Assembly (NCBI GenBank): GCA_012523635.1
Contig: JAAYTX010000083.1
Span: 1-53,303 of the forward strand
Direction of reading: 5' to 3'
Origin: Elusimicrobiota bacterium
Lineage (GTDB): Bacteria > Elusimicrobiota > Elusimicrobia > Elusimicrobiales > Elusimicrobiaceae
DNA length: 53,303 nucleotides
The notes under the pieces are model-generated. The model was not told the origin of the DNA, did no database searches, and saw nothing but the letters and a program-made list of their open reading frames with translations. Within the stretch, counting starts at the first letter, position 1. Every line of letters starts with the position of its first letter. Position numbers and translations under genes: made by a program. Below, piece by piece: positions 35,571-47,460 of this stretch.

Positions 35571-36746
35571 ATGAGCGCACGCCTTCCACGCAGGTATTGG
35601 CTGTTTTCCATAATATGCCTGTGCATTCTCCTGCCGCTGATGCCAAAGGGCGGCATTTCCGCGCTAAGCTGGGAAACAGGACTGCGCTGGCTCTACCTTT
35701 TCCTCATCGCGTTCTTCACCACAGTCATTTCTTCGCCGCTTATAATAAAGCTGGCGCACAGATATGATTTGCTGGACCGTCCCGACGCCCGTAAAATGCA
35801 CAAAACGCCAATACCGCGCATCGGCGGCGCGGCGATGTTTCTGGCCGTCTGGCTGGTGTTCCTGCGCAACATGGTGTTTTCAACAGAACTCTGCGGGATA
35901 ATGGCCGGCAGCTCAGTGGTGTTCATCCTGGGAATGCTGGACAACCTGCTGGGCCTTTCCTCGCTTACCCGCCTTTTCTGGCAGATTGCAGGCTCGCTGA
36001 TTGTGGTGATTTCCGGCGTACGCTTTGACTTCCCGATGCACTGGCCTGGCGGCTTCTATATTTCCGCAGTGCTCAGCGTGTTGTGGCTGGTGGGCATTAT
36101 AAACGCCTTCAATTTTATGGACGGGATAGACGGCCTTGCCGCAGGCCTTGGAACCGCGTCCTCGCTGATACTCATGGCCGTTGGGATATGGACTGGCCAG
36201 CGGGACCTGGTGTTCCTGGCCGCTTCGCTAAGCGGGGCCTGCCTTGGCTTCCTGCTCTATAACTGGCACCCGGCTGTCATGTTCATGGGCGACGGCGGCA
36301 GCACCTGGCTGGGCTTTCTGCTGGGGGCCTGTTCGCTGTGGCACGGCTGGGCCACCAATAAGCCGCTGGTATCATTCGGCGCACCGCTGATACTGCTTGG
36401 CATACCGATATTCGACATAATTTATATAACCGTTTCGCGAATACGGCGCGGAGTGGTGCGCTCGGTGCGCCAATGGCTGGACCATGTGGACAAGGACCAT
36501 TTCCACCACCGTCTTCTTAAGCTGGGATTCACAATAGAGCAGGCCGTGGCCTTTCTTGTCCTGCTCAACATCTGCATGGGCATAAACGCGCTGGTGCTGG
36601 TGCGGGTTCAGTCCAACTTCACCGCAGCGCTGATGGTGCTGCAAAGCACGCTGCTTTTCATCATAGTGGCGCTGGTCATGATACGCCGCCAGGACGATTG
36701 CGTCAGCCTCGAAGCTCCGTCAAAGACTTCAGAAACCCCAAAATAA
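35571..36746 (+). CDS. Undecaprenyl-phosphate glycosyl-1-phosphate transferase (WecA/TagO, MraY family)
   Basis: DRPDARKMHKTPIPRIGG...NAFNFMDGIDGLAAGLG...FMGDGGSTWLGFLLG...HFHHRLLKLG. Confidence 0.93.
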   Translation: MSARLPRRYWLFSIICLCILLPLMPKGGISALSWETGLRWLYLFLIAFFTTVISSPLIIKLAHRYDLLDRPDARKMHKTPIPRIGGAAMFLAVWLVFLRNMVFSTELCGIMAGSSVVFILGMLDNLLGLSSLTRLFWQIAGSLIVVISGVRFDFPMHWPGGFYISAVLSVLWLVGIINAFNFMDGIDGLAAGLGTASSLILMAVGIWTGQRDLVFLAASLSGACLGFLLYNWHPAVMFMGDGGSTWLGFLLGACSLWHGWATNKPLVSFGAPLILLGIPIFDIIYITVSRIRRGVVRSVRQWLDHVDKDHFHHRLLKLGFTIEQAVAFLVLLNICMGINALVLVRVQSNFTAALMVLQSTLLFIIVALVMIRRQDDCVSLEAPSKTSETPK

Positions 36747-37584
36747 GACCCAGCGGACGCGACAGCCTCCGCCACAGAGTAAACGGCTCGCCCCTGGCCT
36801 CAAAAAATTCCCGGCCGGGGAAAATCCTGCGCGGCAGATTGGCCGGAGACAGCACCGCGGGCAACAGATACTGAAGCGTTCTGGACGGGTCGGAGCGACG
36901 GGCCGCCGCAAAAAAAATCCTTTCCTTAACACCGCCTGCGGCGCGCGCGCCGGAGACCCTTTCCAATTCCAACCGCCGCATTGCGGCGCCGAACGGGGCC
37001 GCAAGCCCAAGACGCAGGGCCAGCACTCGCGCCGCCTCCCAGTCGGCGGCAAAATGCCGCGCAATGCCGCGGGCATCGTTCACCGCCTGCCCAGGCAGAC
37101 AGCCGTTGTGAAGCAGCGGATTAAGCAACGCTATCAACAACAGCCATTCCGCGGACGGAGACATGAATTTTACTTCCCCCCAGAAAACTTCACTGGCGCT
37201 TTCCCAAAGCAGTGAAACGGCAAGCCCGGCATCCGGCGCGAACTCAAAAGGCGCGGTATGGATATCTATTGCGGGCAGGCACAAAACGCCCTCAGGCCCC
37301 GACATCACAAAATCATTTGACCCGCCGCGCGTACGTTCGTATCCCAACTCAGGCAGCAAGGCCGCAAAGCGCTGCGCGTCGCCTGCTTTAACCAGCAGGT
37401 CCAAATCGCAGAATTCGCGTTCGCCCGGCTGGTAGACTCCCACAGCGCACAAAAGCGCCCCCTTTATAGGCATGACGGATATACCGGCTTTTGCGGCGGC
37501 CGACAGAACGTCTTCCAGCGCGCGCAGCAATACGGCGTTCCGGGCGCCGGTAAGATAAACGTTTGCCGCGGCAGTCTGTGTCAT
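36703..37584 (-). CDS. RiPP-associated nucleotidyltransferase-fold protein (NTP_transf_5-like)
   Basis: ISVMPIKGALLCAVGVYQPGEREFCDLDLLVKAGDAQRFAALLPELGYE. Confidence 0.82.
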   Translation of the reverse strand: MTQTAAANVYLTGARNAVLLRALEDVLSAAAKAGISVMPIKGALLCAVGVYQPGEREFCDLDLLVKAGDAQRFAALLPELGYERTRGGSNDFVMSGPEGVLCLPAIDIHTAPFEFAPDAGLAVSLLWESASEVFWGEVKFMSPSAEWLLLIALLNPLLHNGCLPGQAVNDARGIARHFAADWEAARVLALRLGLAAPFGAAMRRLELERVSGARAAGGVKERIFFAAARRSDPSRTLQYLLPAVLSPANLPRRIFPGREFFEARGEPFTLWRRLSRPLGLILGFLKSLTELRG

Positions 37585-39254
37585 CGGTTTGCGGATAGAG
37601 CCTGTTCAGGAGAAAGACCGGAGCGAACCCCGCCCATGCCGTCGAATATGCAGGCCGCGTCGGCCATAAGCGCCGACTGGGGCCTGTGGGCCGCTGAAAT
37701 TATGGCAAGCCCCGGATACTCGCGCCGCACGGCATCCAGAATCAGCCTTTCGCTTGCCATATCAAGCGATGAGAGGGCCTCATCCAGCAACAACAGGGCG
37801 GGACGCGTTAGCAGAGCTCTGGCTATCGCAAGGCGCTGTTTCTGCCCGCGCGAAAGCGTCGCGGCGTTGTGCCCAAGCGGCGTATCCATGCCCTGCGGCA
37901 AGCTGTCCGAGAATTCTTTCAGACCGACAACCGACAGCACAGCATCCAGTTCCTCAGGGGCCGCCTTGGGGCTGGCAAAAAGCAGGTTATTGCGCACAGT
38001 ATCGTTCCAAAAATAGCTTTCCTGCGGGGCCACGCCGATGTTGGGGCGCGGCCCGGACACTCCGGCGCCGTCTATTTCAACACTTCCGCTTTGCGGGCTG
38101 TAAAGTCCAAGCAACAGATTGAACACCGTGGTTTTCCCGCAGCCCGATGGCCCCAGCAACACTGTATGTTTTCCGGCTTCAACGGAAAATGACGCCCCGT
38201 TCAAAACCTGTTTACCGTCAGCATAGGCAAATGAAACCGACTTGAACTCTACTGCTCCGGCCCGCACAGGGACCGGCTGCGTACCCGTCTCAGTCGGGGA
38301 ACTGAAAATATCCTCAAGCCTGCGGCAGGAAAGCAGGCCAAGGGCTAGATCCGGCACAGCCTCCGCCGCCTGCGCCGCCAGCGAATTAAGCTGCATGATA
38401 TAAATGGCCAGCGCGGCCAGCGCACCAAATGACAAAAGGCCCTGCCGCATCAGAAACAGGGCGTAGAAAATGAACAAAGCCGCGCCGAGCAAAGCGGCAA
38501 GGCGCGAAGCCATGCCCAGCCATGACGACACCCTGAGACCGGCTATTTCCATGCGCAGCGCCGCAGTCAGGCGGCCGCAGAAACGGCGCAAGGCCGCCTT
38601 CTCCCTGCCCATGGCCTTAACCAGGTATGTCCCGGCAAACAGTTCCTCGGAAAGAGAATAGAAATTCTGCGCGCTATCTATCAGGCTTTCCCAGGTATCC
38701 AGCATTTTCTTTTTAAGGAAATGCTGCGGCAACAGCATAAGCGGCAGCAAAATCACAGCCAGAAGGGCCAGTTGCGGATTCAGCTTCAGCATTATGCCTA
38801 TGGTCAGCAGAACCCGCAGGGCGATATAGGGAATCTGCGCGGCAGTTTCCGTCATGAAAGAAGAAACCCTGTCCACATCCTGGGTGGCCTGATAAAAACT
38901 CTCGCCCGGGCTTTTGCGCGCGCTGACGGAAAGCGGACGGCGGTAGAGGCTTGCGAAAGTTTTGACCGACAGGGACAACTGTAGTTTTGACGTCACGCCC
39001 TTCATGGCCAAGGTCTTGCCCACAGCGGCCAGCTCCGCAAACAGGAATAATGCCCCCAAAGCCGCCACATACCGGTAAAACAACGCCGAGAATTCGCCGC
39101 GCCCGGCCATGTCAACGAGCATTCCGGTTAGATAAGGCTTGCCAAGCTCAAGCAGCATAAGGGCAACGGCCAGAAAACCGGCTCTAGCCAGCATGGGTAT
39201 GGACGGCTTGAGCAGGCTGAAAAACGAGCGCAACAGCCGCAACTGCGTCTTCAT
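37581..39254 (-). CDS. ABC exporter (fused TMD-NBD, no C39 peptidase domain)
   Basis: HTVLLGPSGCGKTTVFNLLLGLYSPQSG; LSRGQKQRLAIARALLTRPALLLLDEALSSLD; start set at MKTQLRL (4-bp overlap with upstream gene). Confidence 0.93.
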   Translation of the reverse strand: MKTQLRLLRSFFSLLKPSIPMLARAGFLAVALMLLELGKPYLTGMLVDMAGRGEFSALFYRYVAALGALFLFAELAAVGKTLAMKGVTSKLQLSLSVKTFASLYRRPLSVSARKSPGESFYQATQDVDRVSSFMTETAAQIPYIALRVLLTIGIMLKLNPQLALLAVILLPLMLLPQHFLKKKMLDTWESLIDSAQNFYSLSEELFAGTYLVKAMGREKAALRRFCGRLTAALRMEIAGLRVSSWLGMASRLAALLGAALFIFYALFLMRQGLLSFGALAALAIYIMQLNSLAAQAAEAVPDLALGLLSCRRLEDIFSSPTETGTQPVPVRAGAVEFKSVSFAYADGKQVLNGASFSVEAGKHTVLLGPSGCGKTTVFNLLLGLYSPQSGSVEIDGAGVSGPRPNIGVAPQESYFWNDTVRNNLLFASPKAAPEELDAVLSVVGLKEFSDSLPQGMDTPLGHNAATLSRGQKQRLAIARALLTRPALLLLDEALSSLDMASERLILDAVRREYPGLAIISAAHRPQSALMADAACIFDGMGGVRSGLSPEQALSANR

Positions 39255-40267
39255 CGCACCGCCTCCTGCCATACGCGGCAATAGTAAGGAAGTTCTTTCG
39301 ACGGAGAAGAAACCTCAAGATACGCCTGGCCCGGGCACCAGCCGCAGTTACCGAACCCGGCGCAGGAGCGGCATTTGGACTTGGCGTTGAAGCGGATGGG
39401 GCGCAAAGCCGCCCGCGCCCTGTCCGCCGCGCGGGCAACGCCGTATTTCAAAATACTGTTCCCGGGGTTGCGTATCATGTCGCAAAGAAAAACATCGCCA
39501 TACGCGTCGACCGAAATACCATGCCCGGAAAACACCCCGCAAAAAAACGGCGATGCGGCGCGCGTTGCAGGGGAATGCTTATCAATACTGCCGCCGTAAA
39601 ACGCGGCATATTCCCCGGGCTCAAGCCGCAGACGGCACGGAGCGGTGTCGCCGTCCAGCCGGGCGTTAAGCAGGGCCGAGGCGTCAAGCGGAACCCGAAG
39701 CCGGGATGCAAACTTTTTCAGGGCTGGAAGTTCTTTACTGTTCGAGCGCGTAACCTGCGCTTTCAGCAACAACGGTATTTTTTTGCGCCGCAACAGGCGC
39801 AGGTTTTTCCTGATTTGCGGGAGGCTTCCGTTCACTCCGCTTATTCGGGCATGCAATGCCGGAGATAAGGCATTAAGAGTAACTTCCACCCTGAACGGCG
39901 GCTGTTCCGACAGCAACCGCAGCATTTCAGGCGTAATTCCCAGCGCGTTGCTCATGATGGTTATCAGGAAGCCGCAACGTTTTGCATAGGCGTATATAAC
40001 AGAAAAATCCGGACGGCAAAACGGATCCCCACCGCTAAAGGTCACCCACAATACCCCGGCGGCGCGCATTTTATCCAGCACAGCCAAAACCTGTTCTGTG
40101 GAAAGCTCGCGGCGGAATCCTGAAGGCGTGCTGAAGCAGGCCGTCTGGCAGTGTTCGCAGGAAAGGTTACAGCGGTAGGTAAGCTCGAAATGGCAGACGC
40201 TGTTGCCGGCCGCTTTTTGATTCTTTGCGCGGCTGAGGGAAAAATTGCGGTAGGAACACTGTCTCAT
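39251..40267 (-). CDS. Radical SAM/SPASM protein (RiPP maturase)
   Basis: YRCNLSCEHCQTAC; TFSGGDPFCRPDF; SPASM CRSCAGFGNCGWCPG. Confidence 0.93.
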   Translation of the reverse strand: MRQCSYRNFSLSRAKNQKAAGNSVCHFELTYRCNLSCEHCQTACFSTPSGFRRELSTEQVLAVLDKMRAAGVLWVTFSGGDPFCRPDFSVIYAYAKRCGFLITIMSNALGITPEMLRLLSEQPPFRVEVTLNALSPALHARISGVNGSLPQIRKNLRLLRRKKIPLLLKAQVTRSNSKELPALKKFASRLRVPLDASALLNARLDGDTAPCRLRLEPGEYAAFYGGSIDKHSPATRAASPFFCGVFSGHGISVDAYGDVFLCDMIRNPGNSILKYGVARAADRARAALRPIRFNAKSKCRSCAGFGNCGWCPGQAYLEVSSPSKELPYYCRVWQEAVR

Positions 40268-40270
40268 CTG

Positions 40271-41227
40271 TCAGCGCGGCAAAGCGCGCACGAAACCTAT
40301 CACCTTGCGGTTCTTTACGAAATTCAGCTTGCAGCAGGGCACCCGCGACAGCAGTTCCCCGCCCAAAGCCAGGCAGGAGGACAAAGCCGCCCTGTCCCAC
40401 GACGGCGGGAACAGGCACGGGTACAGATGCCGGAACGCGCTGTCGAATGCCAGAGTTTTACAGGAATTGCGTCGGCCCTTGCCGATAAAAAATATTTTAT
40501 CCAGGCGCGAGGGCTTGTTGTAGGATTTCAGCTGCCCCCCCACCTCTCCGTGCCAGGGAGGGTTATACATCACAAAACCGTTTCCGCGCCTCAACACGAC
40601 CACCCTGTCGTCGTTGAGCATACCTGCCCGGCTGTTCCTGTGCCACAGTTTCGCGGTGGTGCTTTTGCCAGCCCCTGATTTTCCGGCGAAAATATAACCC
40701 CTGCCGTCTGTATCGCGCAGGCCGCAGGCATGCAGCAAGAGGCCCTCGCCGCGCGATGTTATCCTGTAAATCAGCAGAATCTGCAGAAAATCGTAAACGA
40801 TATCAAGCGGATCCCAAACCATCGCCCCGCCGCGTTTGGCCAGCATCACCGCGTCCACACGGCTCAGATCGCCGGAAATTGTCAGCACCTGCTCTTTGTC
40901 CCGGAGAGGGCAGTAAAATACGTGGCGGGAACCTGCGCGGTACAGGCTCCAGTTTTCCTTGCCGTCCTCGGGATGATAAGTGGTGAAGGCCCTGGCGCGG
41001 GGCAGGGGCGGCAGCTTGGCTGCTACAGATACGTTGACCAGCACATCCGGCCGCCGCCCTGACCGCACTGCAAAAGAGGCAAGGCGCTCGTCTTCCGGCC
41101 TGAACGGATTATCCAGAAGGTCGACCGGCTTGAAGAGGCTTTGCATACGCACCAAAGTGCCGCAAATATCAAGGTCCAGGGAATATTTGCCGTTCAGCAG
41201 GCGGAAATTTTTCTTTATACTGTTCAT
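40271..41227 (-). CDS. HPr kinase/PEPCK-fold kinase-like protein of RiPP clusters
   Basis: LLLHACGLRDTDGRGYIFAGKSGAGKSTTAKLW...LNDDRVVVLRRGNGFVMYNPPWHGE; start at MNSIKKN overlaps preceding stop. Confidence 0.85.
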   Translation of the reverse strand: MNSIKKNFRLLNGKYSLDLDICGTLVRMQSLFKPVDLLDNPFRPEDERLASFAVRSGRRPDVLVNVSVAAKLPPLPRARAFTTYHPEDGKENWSLYRAGSRHVFYCPLRDKEQVLTISGDLSRVDAVMLAKRGGAMVWDPLDIVYDFLQILLIYRITSRGEGLLLHACGLRDTDGRGYIFAGKSGAGKSTTAKLWHRNSRAGMLNDDRVVVLRRGNGFVMYNPPWHGEVGGQLKSYNKPSRLDKIFFIGKGRRNSCKTLAFDSAFRHLYPCLFPPSWDRAALSSCLALGGELLSRVPCCKLNFVKNRKVIGFVRALPR

Positions 41228-42084
41228 ATGGCCGGGCAACGCTTCAATAGCGCCCTCTTAAGTTTAGGAGAATCCAGCCTCCGCCACAATGTCTTTAGCG
41301 ACGAGGGCCCTATTTTCCATTTAGGGCCATCCACAGCCACGCAGATTTTAAGCTCTCCGGCGGGAGTTATCGCCGCCTGCACGTCCCCGGCTCCGCAGCG
41401 CGGGCAGGCCGGCGTCCTCGATAAACCGGGCTTCCCGGACAGGATTTCCGCCGGGAGTGGCGTTCCGTCAAGACGCGGTATATGCTCTGTATCCAGCCGC
41501 CACGGCGCGCCGTATTTTCCGGCAAACGCCCTTAACGAGGGCAGTTCCAGCCTGTTGGCTTTCAGCTTGCAGGTTTTAAAACCCAAAGACAGTCCTTCTT
41601 TCCTTAGAATGCCGGCGGCCCCCAGCACGGCCCTATGGGAATCCGGTGCGCCAGTGACCGCTCCGAAAGCCTTTTTGCTCATGGCTGGCAGTGTAATATC
41701 AACTTTGGCACAGCCGCAATTTTTAAGCTTCCGCGCCGTAGCCTGAGTTATCAGCGAAGCGTTGGTATAAAGATAAGTCTGCATACCGCGCCGACGCGCG
41801 TGTTTCAAAATAGTGAAAATGCCTTTTTTCAGCAGCGGCTCCCCGCCGGTGACACCGAGTTGGAGGCAGCCGACGGCGGCCAGTTCGTCTATGATGGCGC
41901 AAAAACGGCGGGCAGTGATTTCCTTTTTACGGTATTGCGCCCTGTAGCCGTGCGGAATATAGCAATGCGGACAATTGAAATTGCAGTCATAAGTAACTTC
42001 CAGCATCACCCTCAACGGAAAGCGGCGCTTTCTGGCCGCGCGCTCCAACCGCGCGCGAAACGCGGAAGAATCCAGCGTCTTCAC
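41224..42084 (-). CDS. Radical SAM protein with short/truncated SPASM region
   Basis: TYDCNFNCPHCYIPHGYR; GVTGGEPLLKKGIF; CPRCGAGDVQAAITPAGELKIC. Confidence 0.92.
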   Translation of the reverse strand: MKTLDSSAFRARLERAARKRRFPLRVMLEVTYDCNFNCPHCYIPHGYRAQYRKKEITARRFCAIIDELAAVGCLQLGVTGGEPLLKKGIFTILKHARRRGMQTYLYTNASLITQATARKLKNCGCAKVDITLPAMSKKAFGAVTGAPDSHRAVLGAAGILRKEGLSLGFKTCKLKANRLELPSLRAFAGKYGAPWRLDTEHIPRLDGTPLPAEILSGKPGLSRTPACPRCGAGDVQAAITPAGELKICVAVDGPKWKIGPSSLKTLWRRLDSPKLKRALLKRCPAI

Positions 42085-43154
42085 TGAGGGACGCCCCCGC
42101 CAGCCGCCTCATGCGCCAGCACGCAGAAGTAAGGCACCGGCGTTTCCTGGTGTCCCATTTCAAGCAGCGCAGCGGCGGGACAGCTGTAGCAGATGCCGCG
42201 CAGATGACAGGTGCCGCAGGGGCTGTCGGTGCAGGTGCTGGCCCGTGCCACCTGCCTGCCCATGGCGCGGAATGCCGGCAATAACGACGCCTTGCCGGCC
42301 TGACGGCTGAATTTTTCAGTAAACATGCAGAACTTCATCCTGCCGCGCGGATTTATGAAAAGCTGGCTGCGCCAGGAATTGCACCGGTAAAGCGCGGTTT
42401 TGCGTCCGCCGACGGGAACGACATCGCTTTTTACGGCGCATTCGTGTTCGGCGCGGGCGTCCCTGTCCTGCGCCAGCATCTCGCGCCGCTGTTCCGGGTA
42501 AAGGCGATATTTGCATGGAGAAGTATCGCCGTCGAGCCGCGGATAAATATTGCAGTCATATGAGAAATTGTAGATATTCTCACGCAAACTGCCGAAATTC
42601 TTCTCCGCCCAGGCTTTCACCCTGCCGAATTCCCTGTAATTGGCGGTCATGCACGGCATTTTAATTGAAATGTTAAGCCCCTGTGCCTTAAGCGCGCGGA
42701 TATTTGACATGGCGCGCTTGAAAGAACCCGGCACGCGCGTTACAGACTCGTAGGCGCGCGGCGCGGCCCCATAAACCGAAATTTCCATTGTGTAAGGCGG
42801 CAGGCTGCGAAACAAGTCAAGATGCGCTTTTGAAATCGGGTAACCGGTAGTAAAGACCGTGACCAGAAATCCCAGTTCCTTTGCCGTGCGGTAAATTTCC
42901 TCGAAATCCCGGCGGGAGACCGCCTCGCCACCGGTAAAGGTAATCCAGAGGCAGCCCGCGCGCTTAAGCCGGACAAGAAGGTTCTTCCACTCCGAGGCCG
43001 AAAGCTCGTCTTTGGGAGACGAGGTATTCTTGCAATAACAATGTACGCAATTAAATGGGCAGCGGTAAGTAAGTTCCAGATACGCCGTCAGCGGCGTGTT
43101 TTTCGCGGAAGACAGCAGCCTGTTTTCGAGTGCAACAACCCCGGCAGTCCTCAT
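42081..43154 (-). CDS. Radical SAM/SPASM protein (RiPP maturase)
   Basis: TYRCPFNCVHCYCKNTSS; TFTGGEAVSRRDF; SPASM CTDSPCGTCHLRGICYSCPAA; start at MRTAGVV, 2 bp after precursor stop. Confidence 0.93.
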   Translation of the reverse strand: MRTAGVVALENRLLSSAKNTPLTAYLELTYRCPFNCVHCYCKNTSSPKDELSASEWKNLLVRLKRAGCLWITFTGGEAVSRRDFEEIYRTAKELGFLVTVFTTGYPISKAHLDLFRSLPPYTMEISVYGAAPRAYESVTRVPGSFKRAMSNIRALKAQGLNISIKMPCMTANYREFGRVKAWAEKNFGSLRENIYNFSYDCNIYPRLDGDTSPCKYRLYPEQRREMLAQDRDARAEHECAVKSDVVPVGGRKTALYRCNSWRSQLFINPRGRMKFCMFTEKFSRQAGKASLLPAFRAMGRQVARASTCTDSPCGTCHLRGICYSCPAAALLEMGHQETPVPYFCVLAHEAAGGGVPQ

Positions 43155-43156
43155 TC

Positions 43157-43375
43157 CTAGCTGACAGAGGAACTGCGCTGCGTGTTGCAATAGTAGGTGC
43201 GCCTGGTGTTCCTGAAGCAGACGTTCGAACGGTTTATCATCATCGGATATCCAGGACCATACCAGTATGGTTCGAAAGCGCGGCGGTTGGTATAGCAGGA
43301 ACAGGCAAGCACAGCCTGCTCCGGGTTGAGCTTTATCCTGGTGATTTCGGGGGTGAACTTGGGCTTGCCTTTCAT
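43157..43375 (-). CDS. Putative RiPP precursor peptide, 72 aa
   Basis: MKGKPKFTPEITRIKLNPEQAVLACSCYTNRRAFEPYWYGPGYPMMINRSNVCFRNTRRTYYCNTQRSSSVS; GAGG-type RBS; sits between PqqD and radical SAM genes. Track ORF 43157..43462 is the same frame extended upstream. Confidence 0.85.
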   Translation of the reverse strand: MKGKPKFTPEITRIKLNPEQAVLACSCYTNRRAFEPYWYGPGYPMMINRSNVCFRNTRRTYYCNTQRSSSVS

Positions 43376-43385
43376 ATGCGGCTCC

Positions 43386-43667
43386 TCACAGGACGGCCTT
43401 GATGTCTTCCAGTTCCTTGCGCAGGGCGGACAGCCTGCCGTCCGCCTGCTTTTCCGTAGCATCGAAATGTTTAAGCAAAATGGCCTTGATGTCGCCCCAG
43501 CTGCGCTTGCCGTCTATCTTGTCCCACACCCAGGCCGCCGGCTGGTTCATGGTATAAATTGAGTTCAAATCCCGCGAATCGCGGAATATGGGAACCAGCA
43601 CGGTTTCTCCGCCTATCTGTCGGCAGACCATGTCCTTGTTCCTGCGCGGGATTTTGGAGTCGCTCAT
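43386..43667 (-). CDS. PqqD-family peptide-recognition (RRE) protein
   Basis: VLVPIFRDSRDLNSIYTMNQPAAWVWDKIDGKRSWGDIKAILLKHFD. Confidence 0.92.
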   Translation of the reverse strand: MSDSKIPRRNKDMVCRQIGGETVLVPIFRDSRDLNSIYTMNQPAAWVWDKIDGKRSWGDIKAILLKHFDATEKQADGRLSALRKELEDIKAVL

Positions 43668-45001
43668 GCTTTGCCCCGTCTGAAAAGGCCGTCATTAATT
43701 ATAGCCCCGCGGATATGCCGCGCGCAAGCGCGCATTGAGGCTTCAATACTGCGGGAAGCCAGCCCCAATTGCAGGGCGGCGCGATAGCAGGAAAGGGCAA
43801 AAGCCCAGCGGCGCTGCCTTTTAGCCGTTTCACCGGCGTAATAATAGGCGTGCGGACGCAGCGGCTCCGCACCGAGCAATATGGAGAAAACCATGGCGGC
43901 TTCAGCCAGCCTGCCGGACTCTAGGCAAGCCTGCCCCAGCACCTGCAGCGCGTCGGCCCTGATGCCTTTAAAACGCCCGCGCGCGGAGAGAACAGCCGCC
44001 TTGCGCAGAAAATTGATTGCCGCGTTCAATTGATGGCGCCGGAAAGCGACATGTCCCAGCCCCGACAACGCCTGCGGATTCTCGGGGTCAGCCGCCAGCA
44101 CTTTTGCGAACTCCATTTCAGCCTTTTTAAGCCGCCCGGTTTGCAGGTAGAGCATGCCGTAGGAATTATCTGGGCCGCGGTATGCCGATACCAGCCCGGC
44201 CGCTTTCCAGTACGAGTCTTTCCCGCCTTTCTCAAGGAAAGCGCCGAAATGCCGCGACGCGGACAGGCTGCGCCTGTATCTCTCCCCGAAACGGCGCGGG
44301 GACATAAGAAAAGCCAATTCGTCGGCCAGATGGCGAAAACGCATGGGGGTGAAGCCGCCGTTGGTGGAATAGGCGATTGTAACCATCGCCGGAGCGCGCA
44401 CGGACTTTTTAAGAGAGACAAATAATTTTTCCGGAGGGCAGGACACCGCCCTGCGTCCGATAACTGAAGTATTTTCGGCGTTGCGCAGGCTGTCGGCAGT
44501 CATGAAATCTGCGTCTATATCAAGCAGCGCCCCGCCTAGGCGGGGCAGGGTATCCAGAGTGCAGACCCGAAATTCTCTGCCGCGGAAGCGGCAACACGCA
44601 CCTTCACCGGAAAAAACCGGGCGGACGCCGGAGCCCAGCGAAGAAAGCAAAATCTTTTCAAGCAGGGGCCTGTCGCGCCGCAGCTCTTCGCCGGTGCCGG
44701 GCACCACCCAGTAAACGCCGCTTACGATGCCCTCTTCCAGGGCGGGATATATATAGTTGCCGATATCCGTCTGCCGCGAAAAATCGGCGGAGTAACGCAG
44801 GAAAGCCAGCGACGCTTCCAGCCCGCGCTTCAATTCCTCAACGCTGCGCGCGGATGACACCGCGGTGAACGGACGCTCCGCGGAAGGCACACGGAAATCA
44901 ATATGCGCGTCAACATGTACAAGAGGCAGCCCGCGCAGGCCGCGCTTGCGCCATAGCTTCAGGGCCTGATCGTGATCCTCTATAAGTTTTATTTCCATCA
45001 T
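43664..45001 (-). CDS. UPF0489 (arginase/deacetylase-fold) domain fused to TPR repeats; candidate peptide arginase
   Basis: LVHVDAHIDFRVP and LLDIDADFMTA metal-ligand-type motifs; C-terminal TPRs (AEMEFAKVLAADPENPQALSGLGHVAFRRHQLNAAINFLRKA). Confidence 0.75.
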   Translation of the reverse strand: MMEIKLIEDHDQALKLWRKRGLRGLPLVHVDAHIDFRVPSAERPFTAVSSARSVEELKRGLEASLAFLRYSADFSRQTDIGNYIYPALEEGIVSGVYWVVPGTGEELRRDRPLLEKILLSSLGSGVRPVFSGEGACCRFRGREFRVCTLDTLPRLGGALLDIDADFMTADSLRNAENTSVIGRRAVSCPPEKLFVSLKKSVRAPAMVTIAYSTNGGFTPMRFRHLADELAFLMSPRRFGERYRRSLSASRHFGAFLEKGGKDSYWKAAGLVSAYRGPDNSYGMLYLQTGRLKKAEMEFAKVLAADPENPQALSGLGHVAFRRHQLNAAINFLRKAAVLSARGRFKGIRADALQVLGQACLESGRLAEAAMVFSILLGAEPLRPHAYYYAGETAKRQRRWAFALSCYRAALQLGLASRSIEASMRACARHIRGAIINDGLFRRGKA

Positions 45002-45399
45002 CTTCCCAAAAGCCGTGCGGCAAACCGGCGCAAGCCCATAAGCGCCGGGAAAAGGTAAATGGCCAGCCGCGAAATAACGCGCTGCGGAAATGTCTCAAGC
45101 GAAACTGCCCCGCCAGACTTTATCACGGACGACACCTTGCCCAGGCAGGCTTGAAAAGGCACGCGGTCCGGCTGGGAAAAAGAGGCGTCGCCCCGCAGGA
45201 GGAGACAAAGGCTGCCTCCGGTGCTGTCCAGCCCTATTACGCGGTGGCATACTTTCCGCCCGTCAATTTCGGCAAGCACTATGTCGCCGACTCGCAGCTC
45301 GCCTGCGGAAACCCGGCGCAACACCAGCCTGTCCCCGCGGCGGAGCATGGGCTCCATGCTGTAGCCGTCTGCCTCGAACAGTGAAAGATTATCTTGCAT
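44998..45399 (-). CDS. S24/S26-like peptidase, Ser/His (ER/SipW-type) signal peptidase-like
   Basis: DGYSMEPMLRRGDRLVLRRV...RVGDIVLAEIDGRKVCHRVIGLD...LLRGDASFSQPD. Confidence 0.8.
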   Translation of the reverse strand: MQDNLSLFEADGYSMEPMLRRGDRLVLRRVSAGELRVGDIVLAEIDGRKVCHRVIGLDSTGGSLCLLLRGDASFSQPDRVPFQACLGKVSSVIKSGGAVSLETFPQRVISRLAIYLFPALMGLRRFAARLLGR

Positions 45400-45432: not shown

Positions 45433-47460
45433 TCAGGAATCGGATATCGAGTTGAGCACTTTCCAGAAATGGGAGGCCGTGCGCATGCGCTGGTCAGGGT
45501 CGGTTTTAAGCGCCATGTCCATAAGCTGGTCCACTTCCTTTGGAAGGGTTCTCACCACTTCGGACGGGGGGATTATCCTGCCGCTGCCGGGGACATAACC
45601 CTGTATTTCCCACGGCACATGGCCGACCAGCGTCTCGTAAAGGCAGATGCCCAGAGAGTAAATGTCGGATTCCTTGCGTATTATGCCCCGGTTCTGCTCG
45701 GGGGCCATATACGCGGGCGTGCCGGCCACCAGCTTGCTCTGGCGCGGACCTTCAACACGGCGGGCCACGCCGAAATCCATGACCTTCACCACATTGGCTT
45801 CGGTTATCATTATATTCGAGGGCTTCAGGTCGCGGTGTATGATGTTGTGCGCATGGGCGTATTCCAGCGCCTTGCAGATGTTCTCGAAAATCGGCTTGGC
45901 TTCGTTGAGATTCAGCGCCCCGTCCACGTTGATGCGCTGCTCCAGCGTCTGCCCGTGCACATGCTCGAACACCAGGTACAGGTCGTTTTTTATTTCCAGC
46001 ACGGTATAGATTTCCACTATGTTCGGGTGGTGCAGCGAGGCCACGGTGCGGGCCTCCTGCAAAAGTTCGTCGCGCCTGTCATCGCGCACCAGTTCGGCGC
46101 GCAGCTTTTTCACGGCCACCTTGCGCTTGAGTATGCGGTCTGTGGCCTCGTACACCACGCCCATGCCGCCTTCGCCCAGCTGCTTCTCTATCTGGAAGTG
46201 GGCCAGCATGTCAGGCTGGCTTTTCTTGTCCTGCTTGCGCTTCTCCTCTATTATCTGCAGCACTTTCTTGAGAATCAGGAAGCCTATTATGCCGCCTATG
46301 GCCATCATAAGCAGGCGTATCACCAGCTTCCACTGGCTTTTGGAAAGCTTCAGCGGGCCGGCCCCGGCCTGTTTTTCTTCGCCGGAGAGGCCGCCGTTTT
46401 TCACAAGCTGTTCGTATTTTTCGCGGGCGCGGGCCTCTTTGGAAGAGTAGCGTCCCGGGTCGAGGCTGACGGCTACAGCCATATCATCGAACATTTCCTT
46501 ATATTTGCCCATCTGTTCGAGAATGACTGCGCGGTTGTAATAAGCCGAGGCGGCCTTGGGCTCCAATGCTATGGTGCGCGAAATGTCGTCATAAGCGGCG
46601 GCATAGTTGCCCATATCCTTGAGCACCCAGGCCCGTATGCTGTAGACAGCAGCGTCGTTGGGGTTAAGCGAAAGGGAGGCGGTGGTGTCGCGCAGAGCGT
46701 TCTCATGCTCGCCGGAATAGCCGTAGGCGGCGGCCCTTATGCGGTAGGCCTCTATCAGCTTTGGATTGTGCTGAAGGGCGCGCGACGCCGAGGCTATGGC
46801 GCCCTTATAGTCCTTGGAATCCATCTGGGCGCGCGCCCATTCAAGCTCGGCGTTGCCGGTGCGGGAATCGTCAAAAGACTGGGAAAGCGCCATTGTGCCG
46901 CCGCTGGAAGAAGGCTGGGGCGAGGTGGCCGGTTCCTGCTCCTGCTGCACGCGCGGCTGCTGCGCGGCGGTGTCCGGCTGCGAAACGGCCGGAGAAGGCT
47001 TGCCCGACATCGGGTCGTTGTAGCCAGCCGTCCTGATAGGAGACCGGAACGTCATCTCCCCCATGTAAATATCCTCGCGCAGGAGCTGGGATTCGCACGC
47101 CTCCTCCATTCGCAGAAGCGCCTGCTGTTCATCTGAGGAAAGCACAAGGCCCTGGTCCGGCTTGGCTACGCCTTTTTTGTTTTCGGGTGACCAGAAAAGC
47201 TCGGGATGGCGGAACACGTAACGGCGTATGCTGGCCCACTGAGACAGGCGCAGCTTGTCCATCGAAAGCAGCTCCCAGCGGAACATAAGCGGCGTTGTGG
47301 CCCGGTACTTTCCGGCCATCATATCCTTGCTAAGCTGCGCCGCCGTTATCTCTGCCGCGGAGTCCGCCGCGCCGGCCGCGAAAGCACAGACAGGACCGCA
47401 CAACGCCAGAAAAACCAGCGCCGCGAAGGTTGCCAAAGCATGCCGTACGATGCGTCTCAT
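45433..47460 (-). CDS. Signal peptide - TPR - TM - C-terminal Ser/Thr protein kinase
   Basis: GEGGMGVVYEATDRILKRKVAVKKL; IIHRDLKPSNIMITEANVVKVMDFGVARR; GTPAYMAPE; TM LVIRLLMMAIGGIIGFLIL. Confidence 0.94.
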   Translation of the reverse strand: MRRIVRHALATFAALVFLALCGPVCAFAAGAADSAAEITAAQLSKDMMAGKYRATTPLMFRWELLSMDKLRLSQWASIRRYVFRHPELFWSPENKKGVAKPDQGLVLSSDEQQALLRMEEACESQLLREDIYMGEMTFRSPIRTAGYNDPMSGKPSPAVSQPDTAAQQPRVQQEQEPATSPQPSSSGGTMALSQSFDDSRTGNAELEWARAQMDSKDYKGAIASASRALQHNPKLIEAYRIRAAAYGYSGEHENALRDTTASLSLNPNDAAVYSIRAWVLKDMGNYAAAYDDISRTIALEPKAASAYYNRAVILEQMGKYKEMFDDMAVAVSLDPGRYSSKEARAREKYEQLVKNGGLSGEEKQAGAGPLKLSKSQWKLVIRLLMMAIGGIIGFLILKKVLQIIEEKRKQDKKSQPDMLAHFQIEKQLGEGGMGVVYEATDRILKRKVAVKKLRAELVRDDRRDELLQEARTVASLHHPNIVEIYTVLEIKNDLYLVFEHVHGQTLEQRINVDGALNLNEAKPIFENICKALEYAHAHNIIHRDLKPSNIMITEANVVKVMDFGVARRVEGPRQSKLVAGTPAYMAPEQNRGIIRKESDIYSLGICLYETLVGHVPWEIQGYVPGSGRIIPPSEVVRTLPKEVDQLMDMALKTDPDQRMRTASHFWKVLNSISDS

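Follow-up and report, generated by a model that had tools for sequence, protein, structure and literature searches.

The system described here lies in the window, by which we mean the whole analysed stretch of 53,303 nucleotides (contig JAAYTX010000083.1 of assembly GCA_012523635.1, from an Elusimicrobiota bacterium). On its minus strand, an open reading frame (ORF) at 43664..45001 (ATG at 45001, stop at 43664) encodes a protein of 445 amino acids, which, as a first-pass annotation of the DNA had described, is a fusion of a UPF0489 domain (PF12640, residues 4-111) with tetratricopeptide repeats (TPR; Pfam matches at residues 281-412). We consider this protein a candidate peptide arginase. Its gene belongs to a run of minus-strand genes, the ends of which mostly overlap or nearly touch, forming a cluster for a ribosomally synthesized and post-translationally modified peptide (RiPP). 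The end of the UPF0489-TPR gene is overlapped by the start of a gene for a PqqD-like peptide-binding protein, or RiPP recognition element (RRE; 43386..43667; PF05402, 34.7 bits). This is followed by the gene for a precursor peptide of 72 amino acids (43157..43375), with its ATG at 43375 and a Shine-Dalgarno sequence, GAGGAG, upstream. The precursor leader, MKGKPKFTPEITRIKLNPEQAVL, is kept in relatives and co-occurs with the UPF0489-TPR gene, and the core after it, ACSCYTNRRAFEPYWYGPGYPMMINRSNVCFRNTRRTYYCNTQRSSSVS, has seven Arg and no Lys. The annotation had the composition of this core right, but it had placed the precursor next to the UPF0489-TPR gene, from which it is in fact separated by the PqqD-like gene. 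Three radical S-adenosylmethionine (SAM) maturases with PF04055 matches follow: a SPASM-type enzyme at 42081..43154 (likely ATG at 43154), which keeps its place in relatives, and two others at 41224..42084 and 39251..40267. Between the second and third lies a gene for an HprK-related kinase-like protein (40271..41239), recognized by weak HprK/ScmC-type matches and a P-loop and kept in the clusters of relatives.

The assignment of the protein to UPF0489 is a direct observation, as PF12640 scored 37.5-39.2 bits on it, against a Pfam gathering cut-off of 27. OspR, the arginase of the landornamide pathway (PDB 8BRP), was the sole significant PDB match of the domain, with E 3.9e-4 for the single sequence and E 4.5e-8 in a profile search. 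The annotation had also stated, correctly, that OspR is of the UPF0489 type. OspR, FlmR/OhkR and BipC are PF12640/UPF0489 peptide arginases and all of the tested UPF0489 RiPP enzymes, namely OspR, FlmR, OhkR and BipC, convert Arg to ornithine (PMC10028609, PMC12703449, PMC12707348).

In OspR, the metal ligands are His12, Asp39, His41, Asp43, Asp165 and Asp167, Glu11 is the likely guanidine contact, and Ser264 stands in place of the conventional Glu277 (PMC10028609). Alignment to OspR placed the ureohydrolase domain at approximately residues 1-230 of the window protein (44312..45001), which carries three metal motifs. Two of these, VHVDAHIDF and DIDADFM, were pointed out in the annotation and are present; the third, EDHDQAL (residues 8-14), had not been listed and supplies the remaining metal-binding His. 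The six OspR ligands thus correspond to His10 (44972..44974), to Asp31, His33 and Asp35 within DAHID, which is the OspR-type DXHXD motif (44897..44911), and to Asp163 and Asp165 within LDIDADF (44507..44515), and Ser212 aligns with OspR Ser264. All six ligands and the Ser were invariant in every relative covering those positions (34-36 alignment rows). The window protein probably has a six-ligand binuclear metal site, and such invariance in divergent relatives argues for catalysis.

An AlphaFold2 model of the whole protein was of fair quality, with a pLDDT of 79 and a pTM of 0.67. Its Foldseek list was filled by TPR folds, and the domain was therefore modelled alone. The first three matches of this low-confidence domain model were OspR chains (E ~3e-4, probability 0.99), followed by agmatinase; because the TM-scores were low, we take this result as supporting evidence only. 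Agmatinase 1WOG and the Helicobacter pylori arginase appeared lower in the same list. The common fold would also be expected of a small-molecule ureohydrolase, of the agmatinase or arginase type, that merely happens to be located in the cluster. Against this, the nearest family is that of the peptide arginases, a Pfam scan of the window protein did not detect the conventional arginase family, its gene is linked to those for PqqD and the precursor, and core composition tracks the presence of the gene (see below). OspR itself is inactive on free Arg (PMC10028609). We regard a small-molecule enzyme as extremely improbable.

The TPR region (residues 281-413; 43763..44161) was identified by Pfam TPR families, by confident helical repeats in the model and by Foldseek matches to TPR superhelices. 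OspR has a dimerization insert at residues 170-234 (PMC10028609). This insert is absent from the window protein, judging from the alignment, since the spacing from the last metal Asp to the Ser is about 50 residues shorter (47 residues versus 97 in OspR). The TPR superhelix probably takes the place of the insert and binds the leader, its complex with PqqD or the partner maturases. The repeats are the top-scoring part of the sequence in both Pfam and Foldseek, as might be expected if the UPF0489 activity had been lost or changed, the protein served mainly as a TPR scaffold gathering the maturases, and the core Arg residues were wanted for some other reason. The replacement of OspR Glu11 by Asp or Asn would agree with such a loss. 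However, decay of the active site is hard to reconcile with six metal ligands and an equivalent of Ser264 that are invariant in divergent relatives, or with an Arg bias that tracks the gene, and a pure scaffold appears very improbable to us.

Relatives were sought with domain-only profiles in 342 genomes of the phylum to which the window belongs, Elusimicrobiota, and in 336 genomes of Omnitrophota; a full-length search of 200 genomes of the phylum had returned mostly unrelated TPR proteins. The subfamily comprised over 30 relatives in the two phyla, mostly near PqqD, radical SAM, HprK and signal-peptidase-like genes. TPR fusion, which the annotation had thought unusual, proved to be the norm within it. 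PqqD or radical SAM genes lay near 27 of the 36 loci inspected, and several of the other loci were on short contigs. Full-length relatives with 39-48% identity were found in an Omnitrophota metagenome-assembled genome (MAG; L002), in Elusimicrobia MAGs (L003, and L004, which is the same as L007) and in another genome of the window's class (L006). In each of them, genes for PqqD, a precursor and radical SAM enzymes come after the UPF0489-TPR gene; because full-length relatives in separate genomes keep an identical gene order, the association is not due to chance. The precursor leader, K-[PT]-[KR]-F-x-P-xx-TR-[IV]-KLNPEQAVL-x-C, hardly varies among relatives, and the cores are variable, with two to seven Arg each in the window precursor and in the four relatives nearest to it. 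One shorter UPF0489 relative of 293 residues (L111, 7333-8214) has no TPR and lies beside a different PqqD/radical SAM set and a CK-type precursor. Weak UPF0489 matches in frames of 39,687 and 7,924 amino acids (G420:C1 near 147939 and G425:C72 near 14929, the latter L222) are probably due to chance. No match was found in the plasmid collection.

The leader and the UPF0489-TPR gene co-occur. Among the Elusimicrobiota genomes, strong matches to the leader profile and to the UPF0489 profile fell in the identical three genomes (3/3). Among the Omnitrophota genomes, the leader was found in 48, the UPF0489-TPR subfamily in 32, and both in 21 of the 336, where 4.6 were expected (Fisher p 9e-13). A B12-type radical SAM gene adjoins the UPF0489-TPR gene in many clusters, and in two loci (L046, 9249-12303; L047, 9333-12203) a B12-type radical SAM enzyme, UPF0489 and TPR form one chain of 914-956 amino acids or more, to which L046 adds a C-terminal PqqD domain. 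The closest model to the radical SAM part of these chains is TIGR03975 (RiPP C-methyltransferase), and the corresponding precursor cores have six and seven Arg and no Lys. BipC acts alongside a B12-type radical SAM enzyme (PMC12707348), and many members of the subfamily would do likewise.

The number of core Arg residues varies in UPF0489-TPR clusters, mostly from one to seven, and the richness of the window core is by itself weaker evidence for Arg-to-ornithine conversion than the annotation had supposed; its proposal draws firmer support from a comparison of clusters with and without the gene. Controls were genomes that have the leader and lack UPF0489. Of 27 such genomes, 25 lacked any PF12640 match, and G622 and G425 were excluded; most controls had like clusters with PqqD, radical SAM, HprK, signal-peptidase-like and ATP-binding cassette (ABC) genes. 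Incomplete assemblies may conceal genes in the genomes compared. One control, G489, was retained although it shares an identical precursor with a gene-bearing genome and may only seem to lack the gene because its assembly is incomplete; its retention therefore works against the result. The link between the gene and core Arg was directly observed: the ratio Arg/(Arg+Lys) in cores was 0.76 in the 26 genomes that have the gene and 0.39 in the 24 that do not (permutation p 5e-5), and Arg made up 10.3% versus 3.7% of core residues (p 1e-4). Relative to neighbouring long ORFs, the Arg share of cores was higher by 0.27 with the gene and differed by -0.05 without it. The bias appeared in each of the two leader groups separately, and in leader group II the core starts with x-x-CR in six gene-bearing genomes and with x-x-CK in most controls. 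B12-type radical SAM enzymes were considered as the driver of core Arg and are disfavoured, as gene-bearing clusters without such an enzyme still had an Arg share of 0.77 (p 4e-4).

An Arg enrichment of this kind might be a lineage effect, in which Arg-rich precursors and UPF0489 were inherited together with no causal link. On the HprK tree, genomes with the gene do tend to group together (7 changes versus 12 in shuffles), leader subtypes coincide in part with gene presence, and well-supported independent pairs number only two. Phylogenetic generalized least squares (PGLS) with the full tree covariance was added because the first comparison was not independent of relatedness and sister pairs were too few; on the HprK and radical SAM trees it gave slopes of 0.24-0.43 (p 1.6e-4 and 6e-4). 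Since the effect also appears in both leader groups and no contrast is reversed, we judge the lineage explanation unlikely. Its probability overlaps with that of other readings, and it would remove the comparative evidence and not, by itself, the arginase assignment.

In the gene-bearing genomes G553 and G600 the basic residue occupies a fixed site. The cores of the 31 precursors of G553 are otherwise variable, and core position 8 is basic in 31/31 (27 Arg and 4 Lys), where 1.5 Arg/Lys were expected and the maximum in 5000 shuffles was 7. In G600, a basic residue lies a few positions after the conserved Cys in 23 of 24 precursors, mostly as C-x-x-[TS]-[VPA]-[RK], and in G361 each of eight precursors has a single Arg, in C-R-[QE]. 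Both G553 (L165-L179) and G600 (L181-L200) are Omnitrophota genomes in each of which at least 24 precursors are spread across many contigs, their cores being hypervariable apart from a single fixed Arg/Lys; a first look had listed 75 and 115 precursor candidates, respectively. They are apparently one-enzyme, many-precursor systems.

The exchange of Arg and Lys at a fixed site in these two genomes is what a trypsin-like site would produce, and a basic protease site would yield the same pattern. More broadly, another cluster enzyme could target the basic residue, by radical SAM crosslinking or by B12-type C-methylation, or a protease could cleave there, with the UPF0489-TPR protein acting on Arg that had been modified beforehand or on a different target; the B12-type radical SAM enzymes fused to UPF0489 or adjoining it would accord with this. 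Yet clusters lacking the B12 enzyme still show the Arg bias, and clusters that have radical SAM enzymes and the peptidase but no UPF0489 do not. A Lys at the site is explained just as well if a primary amine is required there. Ornithine, which is lysine minus one methylene, would provide that amine, and a site on which an arginase acts would then be expected to show Arg/Lys exchange. We therefore find the other-enzyme or protease explanation quite improbable.

Several further observations speak against the peptide arginase assignment. At the position of OspR Glu11, the proposed guanidine contact, the window protein has Asp9 (44975..44977), and among the members covering it this position is Asp in 28, Asn in 3, Glu in 2 and His in 1. 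The score against NF052474, the FlmR/OhkR family, was 29.0 bits for the whole protein and 32.6 bits for the domain, with a cut-off of 350, so that by the NCBI cut-off the window protein is outside that family. The model of the domain alone was weak (pLDDT 66, TM ~0.39 to OspR). The Arg/Lys measure was picked after the sequences had been viewed, and a sister-pair test found just two supported pairs, none contrary, and was not significant. Some cores in gene-bearing clusters have just one or two Arg; G466 has the gene and retains Lys after the first core Cys, G428 lacks it and has five core Arg, and the conserved basic site of G600 is Arg in 9 precursors and Lys in 14 despite the gene. The three Asn-bearing members noted above are L090, L091 and L101, and one of their genomes is G466.

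Weighing these points, we conclude that the window protein quite likely belongs to a new UPF0489 subfamily of TPR-bearing peptide arginases that make ornithine from core Arg, and that it very probably works like OspR-type enzymes. The sequence family, the metal ligands, the conserved cluster and the association of the gene with core Arg were observed directly; the reaction, the particular Arg residues altered, the part played by the TPR and the order of action with respect to the radical SAM maturases are inferred. In the UPF0489 domain, His10, Asp31, His33, Asp35, Asp163 and Asp165 would coordinate two metal ions, probably Mn2+. The precursor, alone or with PqqD, would be bound partly via the TPR, and a metal-bound hydroxide would attack the guanidine carbon of core Arg side chains, as in OspR, giving ornithine and urea with a shift of -42.02 Da per Arg.

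With the OspR system, the window cluster shares the UPF0489 domain, the six ligands, the Ser264 equivalent and a RiPP context with an Arg-bearing precursor. It differs in the Asp for Glu11, the missing dimerization insert and the added C-terminal TPR, and its precursor leader is not of the NHLP, Nif11, SCIFF or DD(I/V)LF type. By alignment, the protein departs from the tested bacterial enzymes in two features, the insert and the strict motif EEH(N/H)EAF, which reads EDHDQAL here, with the metal His kept and Glu11 changed to Asp. A second strict motif, LDIDLDYFSC, reads LDIDADFMT, in which LDID.D and the aromatic residue are kept and SC is not; other members of the subfamily have LDIDVDYL or LDIDLDYL. 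Homology to the FlmR/OhkR family is detectable over residues 3-168, the NF052474 model (287 positions) being too short for the TPR region and its scores of 29-33 bits far from the cut-off. Like the biphenomycin arginases BipC and PbsE, the window protein is a UPF0489 protein accompanied, in its subfamily, by B12-type radical SAM enzymes in a RiPP pathway; the accessible part of that report mentions no TPR, its precursor differs from that of the window, and its MNIO and other maturases are absent from the window cluster (PMC12707348). The PqqD-like, HprK-like and radical SAM partners, together with weak Scm model matches, recall the SynChlorMet cassettes (TIGR04248-04251), although the Scm scores are far under their cut-offs (ScmD 16.6 of 100 bits, ScmC 22.4 of 125 bits). 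To our knowledge, the SynChlorMet cassette as described includes no arginase.

Our literature search, with most subscription journals outside its reach, found no account of UPF0489-TPR fusions or of such clusters, and this TPR-carrying branch of putative peptide arginases appears to be previously undescribed. Few peptide arginases have been characterised, and the OspR papers call the holding of large peptide substrates an open question; a subfamily that lacks the dimerization insert and carries TPR opens that question to domain-deletion tests. The contrast between clusters with and without the gene is sequence-level evidence that peptide arginases shape core peptides. It also points to peptides containing ornithine in two phyla that are largely uncultured, among them natural libraries in which a single enzyme apparently serves dozens of precursors. 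Ornithine-installing enzymes are relevant to peptide drug work. A broader proposal, to which we give about even chances, is that RiPP clusters of Elusimicrobiota and Omnitrophota include a large branch, so far undescribed, in which a TPR-docked peptide arginase lost the OspR dimerization domain and the TPR took over binding of the precursor or partners. Gain of the gene would let Arg encode ornithine where sister clusters use Lys, and in some genomes one enzyme would serve dozens of scattered, hypervariable precursors with a single fixed Arg/Lys.

The remaining genes of the minus-strand run are an ABC exporter (permease-ATPase; 37581..39281; PF00664, PF00005) and a nucleotidyltransferase-like protein (NTP_transf_5; 36703..37584; PF14907, 74.5 bits). 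On the other side, a small S24/S26 signal-peptidase-like protein (44998..45399; PF00717) is encoded next to the UPF0489-TPR gene, as in many clusters, and is a candidate leader protease. It contains SMEP and, later, HR, and it is closest to archaeal/endoplasmic reticulum-type signal peptidases, scoring 44.9 bits against TIGR02228, under the cut-off of 51.85. Just upstream of the cluster ends a same-strand ORF (45433-47460), the product of which combines a Ser/Thr kinase domain with TPR repeats.
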